Source: Natrinema sp. DC36 (GTDB lineage Archaea; Halobacteriota; Halobacteria; Halobacteriales; Natrialbaceae). From it: DNA of 64,000 nt. The notes under the pieces are model-generated. The model made no database searches, had not been told where the DNA came from, and worked only from the letters and a program-made list of their open reading frames with translations. Position numbers and translations under genes: made by a program. The stretch is taken from NCBI RefSeq assembly GCF_020405225.1, contig NZ_CP084472.1:2666001-2730000 (forward strand), given 5' to 3'. Shown here piece by piece: positions 41,040-51,507 of this stretch (position 1 is its first letter; the number at the start of each line of letters is the position of its first letter).

Positions 41040-43628
41040 ATGGAGTATCACGAGGCGGCGGACTTCTTATTCGATCTGCGGCGCTTCCGCCCGAAGCCGG
41101 GCACCGAGTCGACGGCCCGGCTGCTGGCCCACCTCGAGGACCCCCACGAAACCGTCGATTTCGTTCAGATCGCCGGCTCCAACGGGAAGGGGAGCACGGC
41201 TCGAATGCTCGAGCGAACCCTGCGAGAGGCGGGCCACTCCGCCGGCCTCTACACCTCGCCGCACCTCGAGGACCTCCGCGAGCGGGTCCGCGTCGACGGC
41301 CGAAAGATCCCCCGGTCGGCCGTCTGCGAGTACGTCGAGGCGGTTCGCGAGTACGCCACCGAACGAGCCGCCGACGGCGAGTCGCCCACCTTCTTCGAGG
41401 CGATGACCGCGATGGCGCTGTGGCACTTCGGCCGCGAGGACGTCGATATCGCCGTCCTCGAGGTCGGCATCGGCGGCAAGTACGACGCCACGAGCGTCGT
41501 CGATCCCGTCGCGAGCGCGGTCACGAGCGTGACCTTAGAGCACACGGGAATCCTCGGTGACACCGTCGAAGAGATCGCCCACGACAAGGCCCACGTCGTC
41601 CCCGAAAACGTACCGCTCGTGACGGGCGTCACCGGGAGCGCGCTCGAGGCGGTCCGCGACATCGCCGGCGACGTCGTGACCGTCGGCACGGAGCCGGCGG
41701 GCGACGCGAGCGACGGCGACGATTGCAGACCGGACGTCCGCGTCGCGTACGGCGGTCGAACGAACCACACGGAAGCGGCCGTCTCGATCGACGCCGGCGA
41801 CTGGGATCTCGAGACGCGAATCCCGCTGCTGGGCGAACATCAGGCCAAAAACGCCGGCATTGCCGCCACCCTCGCCCGGCAGGTCGGCGTCGGAGACGTC
41901 GCCGACCTCGAGCGCGGGCTGCGAAGCGCCCACTGGCCGGGCCGGTTCGAAGTGATGGATACCGGACCGCTAGTCGTTCTGGACGGTGCGCACAATCCGG
42001 GTGCCTGCGAGGGACTCGCGGAGACGCTCGAGACGTACGAGTACGACGAGCTCCACGTCGTCTTCGGGGCGATGCACGACAAGGACCACCGCGCGATGGC
42101 CGACGCGCTGCCGACGCCCGACACCGTCGTCGCGACCGAACCGATGCTCGATCGCGCCGAAGACCGGGCGGTCCTCGCGGAAGTGTTCGCCGACGCCGGT
42201 GCCGGAACGGTCGGGACCGAGACGGCGGTTCAGGACGCCCTCGCGACGGCGCTCGGGGCCGCCGGATCCGACGACTGCGTGCTCGTCACCGGCTCGCTGT
42301 TCGCGGTCGCGGAGGCCCGTTCTCGGTGGACCCGGACCGACGTTCCCAAACGCGTCCGAAACCTCGCCGACGCCCGCGACGCGCTCGAGGGAGCGAACGT
42401 CGCCCCGGGCGAGGTCGAGCGGCTGGACGGTGACGCCGTCCACCGTGTCGTCAGGACGGCGCTGCGGGACGGACAGGCGACCGTCCTCAAGGAGGAACTC
42501 CTCCGACTCGGGGGGGAGTGTGCCCTCTCCGGGCTCGAGCGGGACGACGAAACCGTCGACGCCGTGCTGATGGGGACGCTCGCTCAGTTCGAGGCGCTCG
42601 TCGAGGCGCTCGAGGATCGCTCCCGGCCCCACGGGCTGGCCGACGTCGCGCGGGAACTGCGGGACACCCTCGCGCTCGAGGCCGACGCCGATATCGGTGC
42701 CGAGGGTGCGGCGACCGACGCCGAGGACGGGGACGAATCGACGCAGCCGGCGAGTCGGACGGCGGGACGATCCAGATCGTCCGTCGACTCGGCCGCCGAC
42801 GCGGGCGAGTATCCCTGGGCCGACCGGACGGCCGTGATGGGAATCCTGAACGTCACCCCCGACAGCTTCCACGACGGCGGAGAGTACGACGCCCTCGAGG
42901 ACGCCGTCGATCGGGCCGAAGCGATGATCGACGCGGGCGTAGACGTGATCGACGTCGGCGGGGAGTCCACCCGACCGGGTGCGGATCCCGTCTCGGTCGA
43001 GGAGGAACTGGACCGGGTCGTCCCCGTCGTCGAGCGGATCGCCGACCTCGACGCGCACGTCTCGGTCGACACCCGACGGGCCGCGGTCGCCGACGCGGCG
43101 CTCGAGGCCGGCGCGGACATCATCAACGACGTCTCGGGGCTCGAGGACCCCGAGATGCGCTTCGTCGCCGCCGAGCACGACGCGGGGCTCGTGGTGATGC
43201 ACAGCATCGACGCGCCGGTCGTGCCCGACCGCGACGTCGAGTACGACGACGTGGTCGCGGACGTGATCGATCACCTCTCCGAACGGGTGTTGCTGGCCGA
43301 GAAGGCGGGGCTCGATCGGGAGCAGATCATCGTCGATCCCGGCATCGGTTTCGGCAAGTCCGCCGCCGAGAACTTCGAACTCCTCGACCGGATCGACGAG
43401 TTCCACGCGCTCGGCTGTCCGGTGTTGTTCGGCCACTCCCACAAGTCCATGTTCGCACGGATCGGCCGCGACCGCGACGAGCGGCTCGAGGCGACCGTCG
43501 CTGCCACGGCGCTGGCGTCCGACCGCGGGGCCGACATCGTCCGCGTCCACGACGTCCGCGAGAACGTCGCCGCCGTCCGGACGGCGCTGGCGGCACGCGA
43601 TCCGCAGCGATTCGAGTGGGACTCGTAA
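41040..43628 (+). CDS. folCP: Bifunctional folylpolyglutamate synthase/dihydropteroate synthase
   Basis: One 862-residue gene fuses two folate enzymes. Residues 1-430 are FolC, which adds glutamate to folates: P-loop GSNGKGSTARMLE (near 42-54), VTSVTLEHTGILGDT and DGAHNPGACEGL. Residues 430-560 are a helical N-extension of FolP with ATVLKEELLRLGGECALSG, and residues 597-862 are dihydropteroate synthase: GILNVTPDSFHDGG, DVGGESTRPGADPVSVEEE, DINDVSGLEDP-type strand and DPGIGFGKSAAENFELL. The fusion is known in haloarchaea. The joining linker is Asp/Glu/Ser-rich and probably flexible. It is preceded by an AT-rich ACTCAAAAACG element about 40 bases upstream. Confidence 0.92.
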   Translation: MEYHEAADFLFDLRRFRPKPGTESTARLLAHLEDPHETVDFVQIAGSNGKGSTARMLERTLREAGHSAGLYTSPHLEDLRERVRVDGRKIPRSAVCEYVEAVREYATERAADGESPTFFEAMTAMALWHFGREDVDIAVLEVGIGGKYDATSVVDPVASAVTSVTLEHTGILGDTVEEIAHDKAHVVPENVPLVTGVTGSALEAVRDIAGDVVTVGTEPAGDASDGDDCRPDVRVAYGGRTNHTEAAVSIDAGDWDLETRIPLLGEHQAKNAGIAATLARQVGVGDVADLERGLRSAHWPGRFEVMDTGPLVVLDGAHNPGACEGLAETLETYEYDELHVVFGAMHDKDHRAMADALPTPDTVVATEPMLDRAEDRAVLAEVFADAGAGTVGTETAVQDALATALGAAGSDDCVLVTGSLFAVAEARSRWTRTDVPKRVRNLADARDALEGANVAPGEVERLDGDAVHRVVRTALRDGQATVLKEELLRLGGECALSGLERDDETVDAVLMGTLAQFEALVEALEDRSRPHGLADVARELRDTLALEADADIGAEGAATDAEDGDESTQPASRTAGRSRSSVDSAADAGEYPWADRTAVMGILNVTPDSFHDGGEYDALEDAVDRAEAMIDAGVDVIDVGGESTRPGADPVSVEEELDRVVPVVERIADLDAHVSVDTRRAAVADAALEAGADIINDVSGLEDPEMRFVAAEHDAGLVVMHSIDAPVVPDRDVEYDDVVADVIDHLSERVLLAEKAGLDREQIIVDPGIGFGKSAAENFELLDRIDEFHALGCPVLFGHSHKSMFARIGRDRDERLEATVAATALASDRGADIVRVHDVRENVAAVRTALAARDPQRFEWDS

Positions 43629-43737: not shown

Positions 43738-46700
43738 TCAGTCGTCCCCCGCTAGGTCGATCTCGGGCGCGTACTCCGCCGGCCCACAGCCCAGCGACCG
43801 GTGCGGACAGTGCCGACAGTGCTCGCCGGGCGACGTCTCCGCGAACGACGGCTCGTCGACCGTCTCGAGCGTCTCCCGGACCGCCTCCCACGGCGGAAGA
43901 TCAGCGGGCTCGAGGAGATCCACGCGGGGATCGTCGTCTCCGTCGAGGGCGCCGACGTACACGTAGCCCGCCGCCGCGATCGGTTCGTCGAACCGGTCCT
44001 CGCAGGCCCGGCGGTAGAGCGACAGCTGCACGGCGTCGTCGGGTGCGATCCGCTCGGCGGTGGCCTTGTAGTCGAGGACGGCGAGGCCGCCGTCGGGCAG
44101 CCGCCGGATCGAGTCGACGTAGCCCACTACGTCACCCGTCACGCCAGAGACGTCCTCGAGCGAGAAGGAGAGTTCCGCGGCCAGCGGTTCCCACTCGGCG
44201 ATCGGGCGGTCGAAGGCGGGTGCGCTCGCCGCGAAGTAGCGGTCGACGCACGCGAGGACGGCCTCGCGGTGCTCGATCAGATCCCGCGCGGTGAGCTGTC
44301 GGACGGCGGCGTCGCGCCACGCCTCTCGGGTTCGGTACTCGCGGTGAAAGGCCTCCTCCGCGACGTCGTGGAAGACGGTGCCGACGAGCCGCGACGCCGA
44401 GTCGTCGGTCGCTGCGGGCGTTCCGCCGTTGGTCTCGGTCGGCGAGGTGACCTCGCCGTCGGTCTCCGACGATCCCTCATCACTGCGACCGGCTACCGTG
44501 AGCGGATCGTCGAACGCACGAACCGCGTGATCGAGGTAGTGTTTCCGGGGACAGGTCTCGTGGGTGTCCATCGCGGAGTAGCTGTGGCGCATCGCGACCG
44601 GCAGTTCGGTCGCCGACGCGAGCGTCTCGACCGGGAAGCGGACGGTGTCGGTCGTCAGCGCGGACGGCCGGCGACCGCTGGGCACGCGGAGATTCGACCC
44701 CTCATCTGCCACATCTTCGCCGAGATCGCCGCCGTGGCTCGCCGCGTCGGCTGCCGGCAACAGCGTGCCGTCGCGGAGCTGCCGGCCCAGTCGATGGACG
44801 GTCTCGATCGCCGCTCGAGTCTCGAGCGGTTCGACGGGTCGGTCGTCGTAGTCGGCGTAGTACGTGATCGTCCCCGGACTCTCGCCGGCCGAGGCAGCGA
44901 TCTCGTCGGTTCGGTCGACCACGGTTTCGGGGTAGGTCTCCCGAACCCGCTCGAAGCTCTCGATCAGCGACGACCAGAGGTCCATTCGCTGTCCGGTCAC
45001 CGACCACTCGACGTCGCTCGCGAGACAGGCCTCGGCCGTCGACGCGGCGAGTTCGTCCTCGTCGCCGTCGTACTCGTACTCCGACCCGAACAGGAACAGG
45101 TGGTTCTCGGCTCGGGTGAGCGCGACGTGGAGCACGCGCCACTCCTCGCCGACCCGCTCGGCGGCGAGATCCGCGAGCAAGGGGGAATCGATATCGGCGT
45201 CGAGCGCAGCAGCCAGCAGCCGGTATCGGGCCCGCTCGACGTAGTCGCCGTCGACGCACCACTCCTCGTCCGTGAGGTAGGGGGCGAGGACGGTATCGAA
45301 CTCGAGGCCCTTGGCCTGATGAACCGTCATCACGTCGACGCTGTCGGCGGATCTCGTCCCGCGGGTTCGATCGCTCCCGCCGCCCCGAAGCGTCGCCGCG
45401 AGCGCGTCGACGAACTCGGTCGACAGCGACTGGACGACGCCATCGGAGTCGTAGGCCTCGACGAACCGCTCGAGGCGGTCGAATTCGGATCGCTCCTCGC
45501 TCGCACAGAACCACTCGATTCGGGTCAACTCCCGGAACCGGCGGACGAATCCGGAGAGGGGGTAGACGTCCCGGAAGCGCTCGAGCGCCTCGAGGTGGTT
45601 TCGCACTCGCTCGAGTTGGTCGGGTCCCTCGAGATCGAGCGCGTCCGGATCGGGGTCCATCACGGCGTCGTACAGCGACCCGTCGCGCCGTTGCAGCGTC
45701 GCGAGATCGGCCTCCGTGAGCCGGTACCGGTAGAGGAGCACGCGCCGGAGGTGGGCGTCCGCCTCCGGCTCCACGAGGACCCGGAGGTACGAGAGCACCG
45801 TCTCGATGCCGGGCGAGACCTCGCCGCGGGGCGAACCGGAGATTTCGTATGGGATCCGCAGCTCCCGAAGCTCGTCCGCGACCGCCTGCGCGTGACGGTT
45901 GGTCCGGACGATGACCGCGATATCGCCCAGCGAGCGCTGGGGGACGTTCGCAGCCTCGCCGTTGAGCAGCCGCGAGACCGTCGTCGCGACCTGTTCCGGC
46001 GTCGACCCCGGCACGTCGTCGCTCTCGACTTTGACGACGCGGTCCGGCGGTTCGTCCTCGTCGTACGCGCCGGCCGTTCGGCCGTCCTCCCGCAGCGTCT
46101 TCGAGGATTGCGGCCCGTACTCGCAGGCGTTGGTCAGGTCGAGGATTTCCTGTCTCGAGCGGAAGTTGAGTTCGAGTTCGATCGCCTCGTGGTCGTCGTA
46201 GGCGTCGGCCAGCCGGTCGAGTCCCTCGCGGTCGGTGCCGCGCCAGCCGTAGATCGCCTGATCCTTGTCGCCGATCGCGAGCAGGTCCGGCCGGTCCGGG
46301 CCGTCCGTGAGTTCGGTGAGCAGCGAGAACTGAGTCGCGTCGGTGTCCTGGAACTCGTCGCAGTAGACCTGCGTCCACTGGTCGGTGATTTCGTCGGCGA
46401 TTGACGAATCCTCCAGTAAGCCGGTCGCCGTCCGCACCAACTCGTCGAAATCCAGCGCCCGCTCGGCCTCGAGGGCGTCGTGATAATCCGTGTAGACGTC
46501 GGTATAGTGGCGGGCCAGCCGGAGGAACTCGACGTAGTGTTTCAGCCGACCGAAGGGCGTCTGTTCGATCCGGCTCGTGGCCGTCCCCCAGATCCGGTTA
46601 CCGAACAGCGCCCGCGGAAGGTGTTTCGTCGTCGCGTCGTCCAGCGAGAGCGCCTCGATCGTGTTCGTCACGCACTGCTGAAGGACCCGGAGGTAGCGAT

Positions 46701-47550
46701 CGACGTCGCGAACGAACTCGTCGTCGCGGAAGGCCGCCGGCGCTTCCGCGATCTTCTCACGGCAGTACGAGACGAGTTTCCCGTAGTCGATCAGCGACTC
46801 TCGGGCCGCCTCGCAGTGCTCGTCCCGATTGAAGTAACGCAGCGCCTCGTTGTCGAAGGACAGCTCCTCGCCGGCGGTCCGCTCGAGCCAGAGGACGAAC
46901 TCGTTGCACAGCTCGAGGGTACGCACCGGCGGCAGTCCCGACTGAAGCTGTTCGGGTGTGATGTTCTCCTGGCTCATGGACTGGATGAACCGGTCGACCG
47001 CGTCCGTGAGGTCGGTCGGCGACCCGTCGTTGCGTCCCGAATCGGCCGCGAAGCCGTAGTCGGTTTCGGCGAGCAGTCGACCGATGAGCCGCCGGCGCGT
47101 GCGTTCGGTGACGACGTCGAACTCGGGCGAGTAGCCCAGGTAGTAGGCGTACTCGCGGACGAGCCGGTAGCAAAACGAGTGGTAGGTGTAGACGTCGATC
47201 GCCGCCGCGGCGTCCGGCTCGAGTCGCTCGGAGACCGCCGCCCGGATGCTCGCGGCGGCCTCGTTCGCGAAGGTCAACACGAGCACGTCGTCGGGATCGA
47301 CGTCACCTCGATCGATGGCGCGCTCGATCCGAACGAGCATCGTCGTCGTCTTCCCGGTGCCGGCTCCCGCGTCGACGGAGGTACAGGCCGCCTGGCTGTC
47401 GATGACCGCCTCCTGATTTCCCTTGGGCTCGATGTCGGCGGCGGACGCGAGGCCGGAGATATCCGCAGTCTCGAGATCGTCGTCAGTCGGGCCGGCTCTC
47501 GGATCGAGGGTCCGTTCTTCTCCGCCGTCCCGCGGTGATCCGTTATCCAT
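43738..47550 (-). CDS. AddA-like UvrD helicase with C-terminal Fe-S PD-(D/E)XK nuclease
   Basis: The 1270-residue protein joins two enzymes. An SF1A/UvrD helicase fills residues 45-850: Walker A GAGTGKT (62-68), Walker B DEFQ near 398, motif III AIGDKDQAIYGWRG, motif V MTVHQAKGLEFD and motif VI HVALTRAENHLFLF. A RecB/AddA-type nuclease lies at about 990-1270: CPRKHYLDHAV starts it, GTVFHDVAEEAF provides the histidine, VLDYKAT is the catalytic Asp-x-Lys near 1161, QLSLYRR is the Q motif, and CRHCPHRSLGCG supplies three more cysteines for a 4Fe-4S pin. It should unwind and degrade or resect DNA ends. It overlaps the upstream gene by 8 bases (start ATGG inside the stop TAA) and is the last gene of a three-gene operon. 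Confidence 0.85.
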   Translation of the reverse strand: MDNGSPRDGGEERTLDPRAGPTDDDLETADISGLASAADIEPKGNQEAVIDSQAACTSVDAGAGTGKTTTMLVRIERAIDRGDVDPDDVLVLTFANEAAASIRAAVSERLEPDAAAAIDVYTYHSFCYRLVREYAYYLGYSPEFDVVTERTRRRLIGRLLAETDYGFAADSGRNDGSPTDLTDAVDRFIQSMSQENITPEQLQSGLPPVRTLELCNEFVLWLERTAGEELSFDNEALRYFNRDEHCEAARESLIDYGKLVSYCREKIAEAPAAFRDDEFVRDVDRYLRVLQQCVTNTIEALSLDDATTKHLPRALFGNRIWGTATSRIEQTPFGRLKHYVEFLRLARHYTDVYTDYHDALEAERALDFDELVRTATGLLEDSSIADEITDQWTQVYCDEFQDTDATQFSLLTELTDGPDRPDLLAIGDKDQAIYGWRGTDREGLDRLADAYDDHEAIELELNFRSRQEILDLTNACEYGPQSSKTLREDGRTAGAYDEDEPPDRVVKVESDDVPGSTPEQVATTVSRLLNGEAANVPQRSLGDIAVIVRTNRHAQAVADELRELRIPYEISGSPRGEVSPGIETVLSYLRVLVEPEADAHLRRVLLYRYRLTEADLATLQRRDGSLYDAVMDPDPDALDLEGPDQLERVRNHLEALERFRDVYPLSGFVRRFRELTRIEWFCASEERSEFDRLERFVEAYDSDGVVQSLSTEFVDALAATLRGGGSDRTRGTRSADSVDVMTVHQAKGLEFDTVLAPYLTDEEWCVDGDYVERARYRLLAAALDADIDSPLLADLAAERVGEEWRVLHVALTRAENHLFLFGSEYEYDGDEDELAASTAEACLASDVEWSVTGQRMDLWSSLIESFERVRETYPETVVDRTDEIAASAGESPGTITYYADYDDRPVEPLETRAAIETVHRLGRQLRDGTLLPAADAASHGGDLGEDVADEGSNLRVPSGRRPSALTTDTVRFPVETLASATELPVAMRHSYSAMDTHETCPRKHYLDHAVRAFDDPLTVAGRSDEGSSETDGEVTSPTETNGGTPAATDDSASRLVGTVFHDVAEEAFHREYRTREAWRDAAVRQLTARDLIEHREAVLACVDRYFAASAPAFDRPIAEWEPLAAELSFSLEDVSGVTGDVVGYVDSIRRLPDGGLAVLDYKATAERIAPDDAVQLSLYRRACEDRFDEPIAAAGYVYVGALDGDDDPRVDLLEPADLPPWEAVRETLETVDEPSFAETSPGEHCRHCPHRSLGCGPAEYAPEIDLAGDD

Positions 47551-48628
47551 CGAAGCGCACCTCCGCTGAAATGTACTCCTGGCAGCAGACGGTGTACTCA
47601 CAATCCGGACAGGAGTTGTCCGCGATCCGGTCCCATCGATCGGACGGGTCGAACGGTCCCGACAGCAGGCTCGCGGCGACCGCCGCGAGTCGGTCGTCGA
47701 CGGTCCCGTTTCGGTGCTCGTGAGTCATTCCGAAGGTGTGGTGGTCGACGTAGACGTCGGTCAGATCGACGATCTCGAGGCTCGCTTCGACGGTATCACG
47801 GACCCAGTTCACCGCCGTTCCCGACCGATCGGCCAGCGGGATCTGGACGTATCGGCAGGTTCGGTCGCCCAGCTCGAGTCGATCGCGAAGGTCGCGAAGC
47901 CCGTCGAGGACGACGGCGGTCTCGAGGAGCGCGCCGACGGGATCCGGTTCGAACGTCGTCGAATCGGCGTCGAAGTGCTCGGTGAAGAGGTCCTCGACGT
48001 CTCCTTCCCAGTCGGAGCGGTAGCGCAGGAGACCTAGGGGTGCGAGCGTCGGGACGAACCGGACGCCGACGATCGACGAGCCGTCGCCGTAGACGTAGTC
48101 AACCGCGGTGTCGATCGTCACCGCGTCCGGTTCGACCGCCTGCGGAGGTAGCTCGATCGTACTCGAGAGCGGCAGCCCCGGCCCGATCAGTTCACCGCGG
48201 GCGGCTTCGGCGTCCAGTCGCGCGATCCCAGCGGCGTGATCGACCCCGACTCGCTCGAGGTACGCCGAAAGCGTCGCCTCGAGCACCCGCCGTTCGTGAC
48301 GGCGCTGGGCAACGGAATGAAAGCGCTCGTCGTACTCGTTCCAGCGAGCCGAGAGTCGATCGCGGGCGGCGCTCTCGACCGCCTCCCGTTCCGTCTCGCC
48401 GCTTCGGAGCGCGTCGCAGAGAGCGCTCCGCAGGAGGGAAACGCGGTCCTCGACGGTGCGATCGTCGTCGCTGCCCTCGAGACCGTGGACGTGTGCGAAC
48501 TCGTACCGGCGGGGGCAGTGCAGGGCGGTTCGGAGGCCGTCGACCGATAGCGAGGGAGGGGCTGTAGCGGCGTCGGCATTGGCGTCAGCCTTGGCGTCAT
48601 CGTCGGCGTTGCCGCCGATATCAGTCAT
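47543..48628 (-). CDS. Cysteine-cluster protein resembling a degenerate RecB/AddB nuclease domain
   Basis: The 361-residue protein has an N-terminal LRTALHCPRRYEFAHVHGLEG, like the first Cys segment of Fe-S PD-(D/E)XK nucleases (AddB, Cas4). Near its end is NSCPDCEYTVCCQEY, matching the C-terminal cysteine triplet. Thus four conserved cysteines probably bind an Fe-S cluster. However, the central strand that should carry the Asp-x-Lys reads DTAVDYVYGDGSSIVGVRFVPT, with no lysine at that place, so nuclease activity is probably lost. It sits between the AddB-like and AddA-like genes and overlaps each by exactly 8 bases. I infer it is the separated nuclease half of an AddB-like subunit. A different fold sharing the Cys pattern is possible. 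Confidence 0.7.
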   Translation of the reverse strand: MTDIGGNADDDAKADANADAATAPPSLSVDGLRTALHCPRRYEFAHVHGLEGSDDDRTVEDRVSLLRSALCDALRSGETEREAVESAARDRLSARWNEYDERFHSVAQRRHERRVLEATLSAYLERVGVDHAAGIARLDAEAARGELIGPGLPLSSTIELPPQAVEPDAVTIDTAVDYVYGDGSSIVGVRFVPTLAPLGLLRYRSDWEGDVEDLFTEHFDADSTTFEPDPVGALLETAVVLDGLRDLRDRLELGDRTCRYVQIPLADRSGTAVNWVRDTVEASLEIVDLTDVYVDHHTFGMTHEHRNGTVDDRLAAVAASLLSGPFDPSDRWDRIADNSCPDCEYTVCCQEYISAEVRFDG

Positions 48629-50987
48629 TTCGGACCACCTCGCCCGCGGCGAACTCGAACTGCGAACGGACCGCTTCGGCGAGTTCGGGATCGATATCCA
48701 CCTCCTCGAGCACCACCGCGATCTCCTCGAACAGCGCCTCGGTCTCGCCGAGGTCGGCCTCGCCGCCGGTGCTGGCCTCCCGGAGCACGCGCTCGAGTTC
48801 GCCGCGGGGTTGGACGAGCAGCGCCTCGAGGGCGTTCGTCTCGCCGTGGATCGCCGCGTCGGCGGCGGCGTCGACGTCCTCGAGTTCGAGCCCGGGCGTC
48901 GCGTCGATCAGTTGCAGGTAGCGCGACTCGTCGTAGCTCTGGCGCAGGCCGCCGGCTCCCCGTTCGTACGAACAGCAGTAGAGGGCGCAGTCGGCAGCGC
49001 GGGCACCGAGCGCGAGCCGCCGGCGGGACCGCTGGGCGTGGTAGGTCTCGAATGGATCGCCGATGTCGGCAGCGTCCGCAGAACGCTTTGCGTTCTGCTG
49101 GGCTGCGGAAGACGACTCTGTCGTCTTCCGAACGTCGACCGTCGCGAACGTGTCCACGATCGATTCGGGCGACGGATTCGTCACCGCGGGATAGGCCGGC
49201 ATTTCCCGGAGCCACGCCGTCGGAAAGAGCTGCGTGAGGAACTGCTCGCCCGGGTACGTCTCGTCGATCAGATCCAGGAGGAAGACCGCCTTGCGCGAGT
49301 CGTACTTCAGGTCGTCGACGGCACAGACCGTGACGCCGCCGGTCGGCGGCCGCGTCTCGACCGCGTGGACGTAGGGCGCGTCGTACTGGATCGTCCGCCG
49401 GAGCATCCGGCGCAGCCCCTGCCAGTCCGGCCCGACGAGGTCCGTCTCCTCGACGAAGCTGGCGATCTCGAGCACCCGACGAACCCCCTCGTACTGCTCC
49501 CGGGCATCGACCCACGCCTCCTCGCGGGCGATCCGTCCCTTGAGGTCGGTGCGGCGGATCCATCGCTCGAGCGAGCGACGGACGCTCGCACCGGCGGTTT
49601 CCGCGAGCAGCTCGGTCGAAAAATCGGGGGTCCGGGCCCGGAGACGGTCCAGGGAGACCGCTCGCGGATCGCTCGAGTCCCGCGTCGGCTCGGCGGGATC
49701 GATCCGCTCGAGTCCGTTGCCATCGCGCTCCCGTTCGCACTGGCAGGTGACGACCGCGTAGAGTTCGTTCACCGCGGGATCATCCGCGAGCGAAGGGGTG
49801 CCGATCGTCGCGGTCGGGACGCCGGCGTCGCGGAGCCGCCGTCTGGTCTCGGGGACCCGTTCGATCCGCGGGACGGCAACGGCGAACTCGTCGTACGACC
49901 AGTCGTGGCGGTCGCACAGCGACTGGATCTCGGTCGCGACCGCTCGGAGCTGCTCGCGGGCGGTTCCGGTACGAATGCGTCTCGCTCGGCCTCTCGAGTC
50001 CGTCTCCGACGAGTGCGCGCCCGCCGAGTCCGCGTCCGTCGAGTCTGCGTCCGGCGACTCCGCTCCGTCGCCGACGGCGGCAGATCGATCCGGAGAGTCG
50101 CCCGTGGCCAGAAACCGTGCTATCGGCTGGTGTGGCGGCTCGGTGTCGGTATCTCCGTTACGGATTGCTCCGGGAGCAATCGTCTCGACCGCGAGTCCCG
50201 CGTCGGTCGCGATATCGTCGATGCGGCCCGGCTCGACGCGCGTCCGTTCGACGCTGGCGTGTCGTTCGCCGACACAGACGAGCTCCGCATCGCGCGTGAG
50301 TGCCGCGAGGTACCGACGGTCGAGTCGGCGGTACTCCTCGAATTCGACGGCGAGAACGGCGTCGAACGAACTGGTGACCCGCGTTCGGAGTCCGTCCGCG
50401 TTCGCCTCGAGTCGCTCGACGGCCTGCGGGATCACGTCGGCCCGTTCGACGTACCCCCGGTCGTCGATCTCGGCGTGGAATCGGTCGTTCATCGCGTACA
50501 GAAAGGCGAGACAGTCGTGGGGATCGTCGAGGCCGTCGAGTCGGATACGTTGGCGAGTCGCCTCGAGCAACAGTTGGCCGACGTCGCGGGGGAAGCTCTC
50601 GTGGGCGGCGGCGCGCTGGAGGTAGTCGGGAACCGATCGGCTCGCGCCGTCGATCACCAGCGAGATGAGTTCGATCCGCTCCTCGTACTCGAGGCGAGAC
50701 AGCGTCGGATCGTACTCCTCGATGGTCTTCGAGGCGTGTTCCGGCAGCGACTCGATTCGGGGTGTGCGAGGGGCGTCGTGCGTCCGCTCGAGGTCGGCAT
50801 CGGTCAGCGCGTCGGTCAGGGACTCAAGACCCGCCGGATGCCGTTTCAGGACCAGCACGTTTCGCGGGCCGTATTCCGCGGCGAGGGTCGCGAATTCGGC
50901 AGTGATGGCCGCGAACACGTCGTCGCTGGGGACGGGAGCGGGGAGGAGCTTGCAGCGGCCGTCGAGCGCGGGCGGGGAAGACGCCAT
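48621..50987 (-). CDS. AddB-like protein with degenerate SF1 helicase motifs
   Basis: The 788-residue protein has no Walker A: the place of the loop reads LLPAPVPSDDVFAAI. Nevertheless, the C-terminal half keeps segments at helicase motif V and VI positions: VCAVDDLKYDSRKAVFLLDLIDETYPG and LYCCSYERGAGGLRQSYDES, reminiscent of AddB/AdnA subunits. Earlier segments (SRLEYEERIELISLVIDGASRSVPDYLQ and FDAVLAVEFEEYRRLDRRYLAAL) resemble the 1A/2A helicase cores. An inactive structural helicase subunit is inferred. A Ser/Asp/Ala-rich insert (about residues 285-330) looks disordered. It is the first gene of the operon; a palindromic TATA element ATTTAAAT lies at 51021-51028. Confidence 0.7.
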   Translation of the reverse strand: MASSPPALDGRCKLLPAPVPSDDVFAAITAEFATLAAEYGPRNVLVLKRHPAGLESLTDALTDADLERTHDAPRTPRIESLPEHASKTIEEYDPTLSRLEYEERIELISLVIDGASRSVPDYLQRAAAHESFPRDVGQLLLEATRQRIRLDGLDDPHDCLAFLYAMNDRFHAEIDDRGYVERADVIPQAVERLEANADGLRTRVTSSFDAVLAVEFEEYRRLDRRYLAALTRDAELVCVGERHASVERTRVEPGRIDDIATDAGLAVETIAPGAIRNGDTDTEPPHQPIARFLATGDSPDRSAAVGDGAESPDADSTDADSAGAHSSETDSRGRARRIRTGTAREQLRAVATEIQSLCDRHDWSYDEFAVAVPRIERVPETRRRLRDAGVPTATIGTPSLADDPAVNELYAVVTCQCERERDGNGLERIDPAEPTRDSSDPRAVSLDRLRARTPDFSTELLAETAGASVRRSLERWIRRTDLKGRIAREEAWVDAREQYEGVRRVLEIASFVEETDLVGPDWQGLRRMLRRTIQYDAPYVHAVETRPPTGGVTVCAVDDLKYDSRKAVFLLDLIDETYPGEQFLTQLFPTAWLREMPAYPAVTNPSPESIVDTFATVDVRKTTESSSAAQQNAKRSADAADIGDPFETYHAQRSRRRLALGARAADCALYCCSYERGAGGLRQSYDESRYLQLIDATPGLELEDVDAAADAAIHGETNALEALLVQPRGELERVLREASTGGEADLGETEALFEEIAVVLEEVDIDPELAEAVRSQFEFAAGEVVRND

Positions 50988-51507
50988 CGGTTGTACGTCA
51001 CCGAGTATGTTCGAATTGGTATTTAAATGTGGGCACGATTCGATTCGAGCCGTCACGCTGAGTCGACGCGTACCGATCGGGCTCGAGTACCGCTACCGTC
51101 GGCCGTCCGATCCGAATTCGATACGGGGAGTGCGTCGCTTCCTCGAGCCGATAGTATCTGAATTCAAAGATAGTAAGGATAAATATGTTAGTATTCCTGT
51201 ACTGAACATGAATAGCCGCACCAAACAGCGTATGCCGGACCAATATGGGGTTTAAAGTAGAAAGACTCGGAAAGAGGCGAAATCGAGAGATCGATCTGAC
51301 ATTTTCTTCTAGGCGGATCATATGTGGGTATCACGGACAATGAACCGATTCTACGCCCCACTACAGTTCTATAAGAAAAGGGTTGTAAAAATATATATTT
51401 CCAATACTGTTCGAGTGTTTATCATTCACACCAACTGCGTTCGGGACCGAAGAGAGACGGTCAATCGGCTGCAGATCGAGGTTCGTGACGTCGGAACCGG
51501 TCGGTTT
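50988..51507. other. AT-rich non-coding block upstream of the helicase-nuclease operon
   Basis: 520 bases hold no supported gene. Bases 51021-51028 (ATTTAAAT) are the operon's TATA box, placing transcription start near 50997. From about 51160 to 51440 the base composition is far more AT-rich than the rest of the window, with A/T runs such as GTAAAAATATATATTTCC near 51386-51403. This may be an acquired segment, a small RNA region or a regulator-binding site. Confidence 0.5.

Follow-up and report, generated by a model that had tools for sequence, protein, structure and literature searches.

What is encoded by three overlapping haloarchaeal genes of which only the last looks like a complete helicase-nuclease? 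The genes lie in the window (the whole 64,000-nucleotide stretch of Natrinema sp. DC36 DNA that was analysed), and an earlier note on this sequence had read them as an AddAB- or AdnAB-like operon whose AddB chain has been cut in two and has lost its nuclease. On the evidence below the three genes probably code for an archaeal DNA-end helicase-nuclease of the AddAB type, with AddB split into two proteins and, as in RecBC, one motor and one nuclease.

The operon and its AddA-like subunit

The genome carrying the window is haloarchaeal and 5.1 Mb in size; at the operon locus Natrinema zhouii is the closest named relative, its large subunit being 93% identical. P0003, P0002 and P0001 are consecutive on the minus strand, with adjoining genes overlapping by 8 bp (Table 1); an in-frame GTG at 51056 is a possible alternative start for P0003. 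All three open reading frames are present and run head to tail as had been described, and at the thresholds used they were found in the same 35 of 61 relatives (the tally for P0002 takes in a few weak matches). In all of the approximately 125 Halobacteria loci surveyed the genes have the same order on one strand and are never fused, and an 8- or 4-bp overlap joins the first two genes at 98 of 125 loci and the last two at 102 of 125. The three genes therefore stay together across the Halobacteria, on which the earlier reading had depended. A P0003-P0002 fusion, raised by open frames of 999-1359 aa, was considered and rejected: in the 1359-aa case (L119/L187) the middle protein has an ORF of its own, and the extra length is upstream read-through in GC-rich DNA.

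Table 1. Genes of the operon and their diagnostic features (positions are those of the window)
Feature	Position	Strand	Remark
P0003	48621..50987	-	788 aa; AddB-type helicase-like subunit without Walker A
P0002	47543..48628	-	361 aa; separate AddB-type Fe-S nuclease domain, active site lost, 4 Cys kept
P0001	43738..47550	-	1270 aa; AddA-like SF1 helicase + C-terminal four-Cys PD-(D/E)XK nuclease
P0003/P0002 overlap	48621..48628	-	8 bp
P0002/P0001 overlap	47543..47550	-	8 bp
P0002 C38	48515..48517	-	first of four putative Fe-S cysteines
P0002 D177	48098..48100	-	sole acidic active-site residue retained; 126/126 sequences
P0002 RFV, residues 190-192	48053..48061	-	in place of catalytic DYK
P0002 C340, C343, C349	47582..47611	-	other three putative Fe-S cysteines
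P0001 Walker A GTGKT, residues 64-68	47347..47361	-	near-invariant in P0001 alignment
P0001 DEFQD, residues 398-402	46345..46359	-	SF1 motif II; invariant in P0001 alignment
P0001 DYK, residues 1160-1162	44065..44073	-	nuclease motif; invariant

P0001 matches the Pfam families UvrD-helicase (1.3e-52), UvrD_C (3.1e-25) and PDDEXK_1 (2e-18), and a profile search places PcrA, AdnB and AddA among its best PDB relatives. All the motifs sought were found (GAGTGKT, DEFQD, HxxxE, GxxD, DYK, Q and the four cysteines), so that by sequence P0001 has both the complete SF1 motifs and the Fe-S PD-(D/E)XK domain ascribed to it earlier, and has what characterizes AddA, namely SF1A helicase motifs and a C-terminal RecB-family nuclease. 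Among 121 AddA chains that are full-length and readable at every position, every tested motif is kept in 120; the remaining chain has Ala for the Glu of HxxxE. In a plasmid cassette of Halobacterium sp. DL1 (L172/L204) the AddA gene is shortened to about 540 aa. Is the operon a Gabija system? PADLOC does match P0001 to GajB/UvrD, but this, like its other PADLOC matches, is generic UvrD similarity; P0002 and P0003 have no GajA match, the ATPase-TOPRIM partner of GajB was thus not found, and this assignment was rejected.

Two proteins that match the parts of AddB

P0003 has no Pfam match above threshold, and Pfam, NCBIfam and PADLOC alone fail to identify it. When a profile of its relatives was used, the best PDB chain was AddB (3u44_B, E 9.1e-6). 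P0002 matches only the first part of the Pfam model PDDEXK_1 (E 4.2e-7) and its profile gave only spurious matches in the PDB; a fold search succeeded. For this, AF2 models of both proteins were built from the window and genome-contig sequences and compared with the PDB. The P0003 model (mean pLDDT 77.5) aligns with residues 2-768 of AddB 4cej_B (VIA-align: Z 20.8, 628 aligned, rmsd 6.4), UvrD, PcrA and AdnAB chains fitting it about as well. The P0002 model (pLDDT 83.5) aligns with residues 785-1137 of the same AddB chain (Z 14.7, 276 aligned) and with AdnA 789-1039 (Z 14.8), AddB and AdnA coming ahead of most other nucleases. Since the two alignments to AddB follow one another, the models cover adjacent, non-overlapping parts of that chain, with the division at residues ~770-785. 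The folds thus agree with the earlier proposal that P0003 and P0002 are an AddB chain cut in two, the one matching the helicase-like and the other the nuclease fold; neither model proved to be unrelated to AddB.

The Walker A motif is absent from P0003 and from all its relatives at all loci examined, the three GK[ST] triplets among the relatives being chance occurrences deep inside the chain. Fold and missing Walker A together fit the helicase-like domain of AddB, which has no motor function, and uphold the description of P0003 as helicase-like but without Walker A. AdnAB was weighed as another assignment: it too is built of a pair of UvrD-like chains that both carry a RecB-family nuclease, and fold scores are similar. 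Both AdnAB chains, however, carry helicase motifs, and as P0003 and its relatives have no Walker A this membership was rejected.

In AddAB the AddB subunit is a single chain, whereas in all ~125 haloarchaeal loci it corresponds to two genes. Are there unsplit forms in Archaea? Of 148 genomes of the phylum, 18 have matches to the AddB model; these all score under the curated cut-off, and none comes from the haloarchaeal order. At 11 of the 14 non-haloarchaeal loci fetched, an AddB-like chain of 1027-1069 aa is followed directly by an AddA-like chain, forming two-gene operons within the same phylum (L208-L217 and L221); our guess is that these genomes are methanogens. The unsplit archaeal AddB has the CPF, motif His, GRVDR, DYK, Q and C-terminal cysteines, and finds Bacillus subtilis AddB with an E value of 2.2e-42. 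With hhalign, the P0003 profile falls on its N-terminal columns 28-591 (98.3%, E 1.7e-14) and the P0002 profile on its C-terminal columns 739-1044 (93.7%, E 1.9e-7), so that the profile searches suggested in the earlier note lead to AddB for both proteins, through 3u44_B in the case of P0003 and through the unsplit archaeal chain in both. Because the parts and the genes have the same order in the unsplit pair, fission of AddB is the straightforward explanation of the haloarchaeal arrangement, and the split marks a place where AddB can be cut without losing parts. In a class-wide draw, 139 of 391 genomes, belonging to 51 of 86 genera, contained a relative of P0003; a draw across the phylum yielded none beyond the haloarchaeal order.

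The operon in the window shares with B. subtilis AddAB and with the archaeal AddB-AddA pair the order of the genes (AddB then AddA), an AddA that is both motor and nuclease, and an AddB that combines a motor-less helicase fold with an Fe-S nuclease fold. It differs in that its AddB is two proteins and that the nuclease site is lost in its clade. The haloarchaeal AddA nuclease is itself distinctive in its four conserved cysteines, a pattern that a regular expression detected in two of the 11 archaeal AddA partners inspected.

Lost and intact nuclease sites and the proposed machine

Is the nuclease domain of AddB dead? The earlier note had described P0002 as a four-cysteine protein lacking the nuclease lysine, and this is what Table 1 records. 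The motif His and second Asp are both replaced by R, Lys by V, Gln by E and Tyr by V. By fold P0002 is still the four-cysteine nuclease domain of AddB, with a putative Fe-S cluster, and the four cysteines are kept in 125 of 126 P0002-like sequences. These sequences take two forms. In the intact form (48 loci) the His is present at 47, both Asp, the Lys, the Gln and the Tyr at all 48, and each of the four cysteines at 47 or 48. In the lost form (78 sequences, including that of the window) neither the Lys nor the His occurs even once, the second Asp occurs in two, and D177 and all four cysteines occur in every one. Since the genomes are a sample and close relatives are over-represented among the loci fetched, the ratio of 48 to 78 is not a frequency. 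Judged by motif, then, the claim of a dead AddB nuclease holds for the clade of the window but not for the sister clade, and the two active nucleases that mark AddAB are present at the 48 sister loci and absent from the 78 lost-form sequences. That the dead nuclease is a property of a clade was missed in the earlier note, as were the unsplit archaeal pair and the parallel with RecC taken up below.

A single branch (SH-aLRT 100) parts the intact from the lost form in both the AddA tree and the P0003 tree. With unsplit archaeal AddA as outgroup both forms are clades (97 and 95), the deep splits being less sure on account of long branches and quick searches. As the AddB nuclease of the outgroup is intact, it is simplest to suppose that the site was lost once, along a single branch. 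The median omega among Natrinema is 0.21 for P0003, 0.25 for P0002 and 0.20 for P0001; such low values indicate that the dead P0002 domain is kept by selection, and this purifying selection on the middle gene, together with the constant order and strand of the genes at all ~125 loci, argues that the operon is not a chance arrangement.

What might a dead nuclease domain be kept for? One explanation is that P0002 has ceased to be a subunit and become an independent Fe-S protein, DNA-binding or regulatory, which has simply remained in the operon. Its divergence would suit such a change, since it has 20-25% identity with the intact forms and the Natrinema versions are about 60 residues longer. We regard it as unlikely, however, because P0002 is never lost or moved in ~125 loci, is translationally coupled to both neighbours, and is still folded like the AddB nuclease domain. 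That P0002 has kept nuclease activity with its active site rearranged is in our judgement very improbable: the invariance of D177 speaks for it and could allow a weak or altered activity, but in the window, as in almost all 78 lost-form sequences, the His, second Asp, Lys, Gln and Tyr have given way to non-equivalent residues, and these same residues are kept in the sister clade.

The reading that we prefer, a split AddAB-type machine, leaves one motor and one nuclease, as had been supposed, P0001 alone having the complete motifs of both. Its nearest functional parallel is RecC (PMC1185551). RecBCD likewise has one nuclease, in the RecB/AddA chain, and a partner whose helicase and nuclease domains are both dead; the inactivated nuclease domain of RecC is a hoop for one strand and is part of a single chain (PMC1185551). 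The operon differs in that the RecC-type partner is two chains at all loci and that P0002 keeps its four cysteines, and no RecD-like gene was seen in the operon or next to the cassette. Rigden proposed a step leading to RecC from an AddAB-like state, and of this step the dead-nuclease clade would provide a second example, one in which the cysteines are kept.

How would such a machine work? AddAB has one SF1A motor, its AddA nuclease cuts the 3' strand and its AddB nuclease the 5' strand, and the helicase-like part of AddB binds Chi and acts as a scanner (PMC4824097); the integrity of the nuclease domain depends critically on the Fe-S iron staple (PMC7430649). We infer that the three proteins assemble into one complex that would load on double-strand ends, unwind them, and degrade DNA with one nuclease. 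P0001 would be its sole motor and sole nuclease. The motor-less P0003 would hold and scan the unwound strand at the place where AddB and RecC bind Chi, perhaps under some Chi-like control, and P0002, dead but held by its putative iron staple, would bind the DNA end and guide a strand, as the corresponding dead domain of RecC does. One difficulty is that, once the AddB nuclease is dead, resection could leave a 3' overhang only if AddA cut the other strand too. If P0001 cut both strands, as RecB does, the complex would be an analogue of RecBC; if it cut the 3' strand only, the product would be wrong for recombination and the enzyme would be destructive. In Natrinema the complex would probably be a chromosomal machine that processes broken or foreign linear DNA.

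HerA-NurA is also an archaeal helicase-nuclease for DNA-end resection, but it has another motor (HerA) and another nuclease family, and a NurA-family gene lies elsewhere in the same genome. NurA-family genes were found in 40 of 41 relatives searched and in the Haloferax volcanii control, so the operon is not the sole candidate resection nuclease, and the idea that haloarchaea have no other was discarded. The match in the control is contrary to a 2020 review, which gives NurA as absent from H. volcanii (PMC7776575); resection in this organism rests on Mre11-Rad50, and the review lists no AddAB-type machine (PMC7776575). We found no description of the three-gene complex in the open-access literature. 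As a conserved, linked candidate whose parts have known functions, it makes DNA-end processing in Natrialbaceae directly testable.

Chromosomal, plasmid and Argonaute-linked cassettes

The window clade is a stable chromosomal locus in Natrinema. A cassette was found in all 29 searched genomes of the genus, and the neighbours in this clade are housekeeping genes (a folP fusion, Usp and a TPP enzyme), the folate-synthesis (folP) fusion gene adjoining the cassette in 22 Natrinema loci. In the window the gene beside the operon (41040-43628) codes for a fusion of a Mur-ligase-like domain of folylpolyglutamate-synthase type with dihydropteroate synthase (Pterin_bind).

The intact clade spans several families on short branches. 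Relatives of its helicase-like subunit occur on 16 plasmid records, mostly close to the intact form, and none was found in phage records. Neighbours of the plasmid cassettes are BREX-5 genes, type I and type III restriction genes, conjugation genes, or a Mre11/Rad50-like pair. One plasmid branch with an intact cassette and no pAgo (L168-L174, L182, L194, L199-L201, L204-L207) has a divergent DUF4143 AAA ATPase gene upstream and, in most cases, a convergent gene of unknown function and a PLD-like gene downstream.

BLAST revealed a pAgo gene upstream of the cassette in 12 sister loci. In all 11 that were examined further the four catalytic motifs sought are present in the pAgo protein (888-895 aa), and in 10 a 706-aa PLD protein gene begins 61-64 bp after pAgo and the cassette 5 bp after PLD; at the other, L135, the PLD gene is incomplete. 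The resulting five-gene operon (pAgo, PLD, AddB-helicase, intact AddB-nuclease, AddA; gaps ~63 and 5 bp) belongs to one branch of the intact clade and is found in several haloarchaeal families (L042, L131-L133, L138, L141-L143, L147, L148, L195). In a class-wide pAgo search, closely related pAgo genes (83-92% identity) lay about 2-2.5 kb from a cassette, except in G285 where the two are on neighbouring contigs, and more distant pAgos had no cassette nearby. The earlier note had missed these ties of the intact clade to plasmids, restriction and BREX genes and an Argonaute operon.

The haloarchaeal pAgo-PLD (APAP) system restricts a plasmid and an ssDNA virus, and its authors mention nearby only 'a helicase-encoding gene' (PMC11442185). 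The pAgo-PLD pair that sister cassettes follow in one operon corresponds to this published type of system, but at E 1e-10 the genome of the window contains nothing matching the cassette-linked pAgo and so lacks the combination of long-A pAgo and AgaP PLD that defines APAP. Could the cassette nevertheless serve primarily in defence, degrading invading linear or nicked plasmid and virus DNA, with the chromosomal Natrialbaceae form a domesticated or fixed mobile cassette? The plasmid cassettes beside BREX-5, restriction and conjugation genes, the sister cassettes in an operon of a kind that gives plasmid and ssDNA virus immunity (PMC11442185), and the patchy distribution of P0003 relatives noted above all point that way. 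The housekeeping neighbours of the window's own clade point the other way, as do the presence of a cassette in every Natrinema genome searched and the lack of a relative of that pAgo in the genome of the window; PADLOC offers only the generic UvrD/GajB similarity. On balance we consider a primary role in defence possible but not probable.

RecBCD acts together with CbAgo in E. coli (PMC10164581), and the pAgo-linked sister cassette would be the dedicated AddAB of an Argonaute. We tentatively suggest, as a scheme somewhat more likely to fail than to hold, a 'split AddAB' class with two forms. The dead form would be a chromosomal RecBC of Natrialbaceae that independently repeats the step from AddB to RecC with the staple kept, and the two-nuclease form would make guides or degrade invader DNA within the Argonaute-PLD operon. 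In one genome (G312:C1:2389715-2390339) a decayed pAgo, in fragments and with an internal stop, lies beside a cassette at 2385468, which suggests that the cassette can dispense with pAgo.
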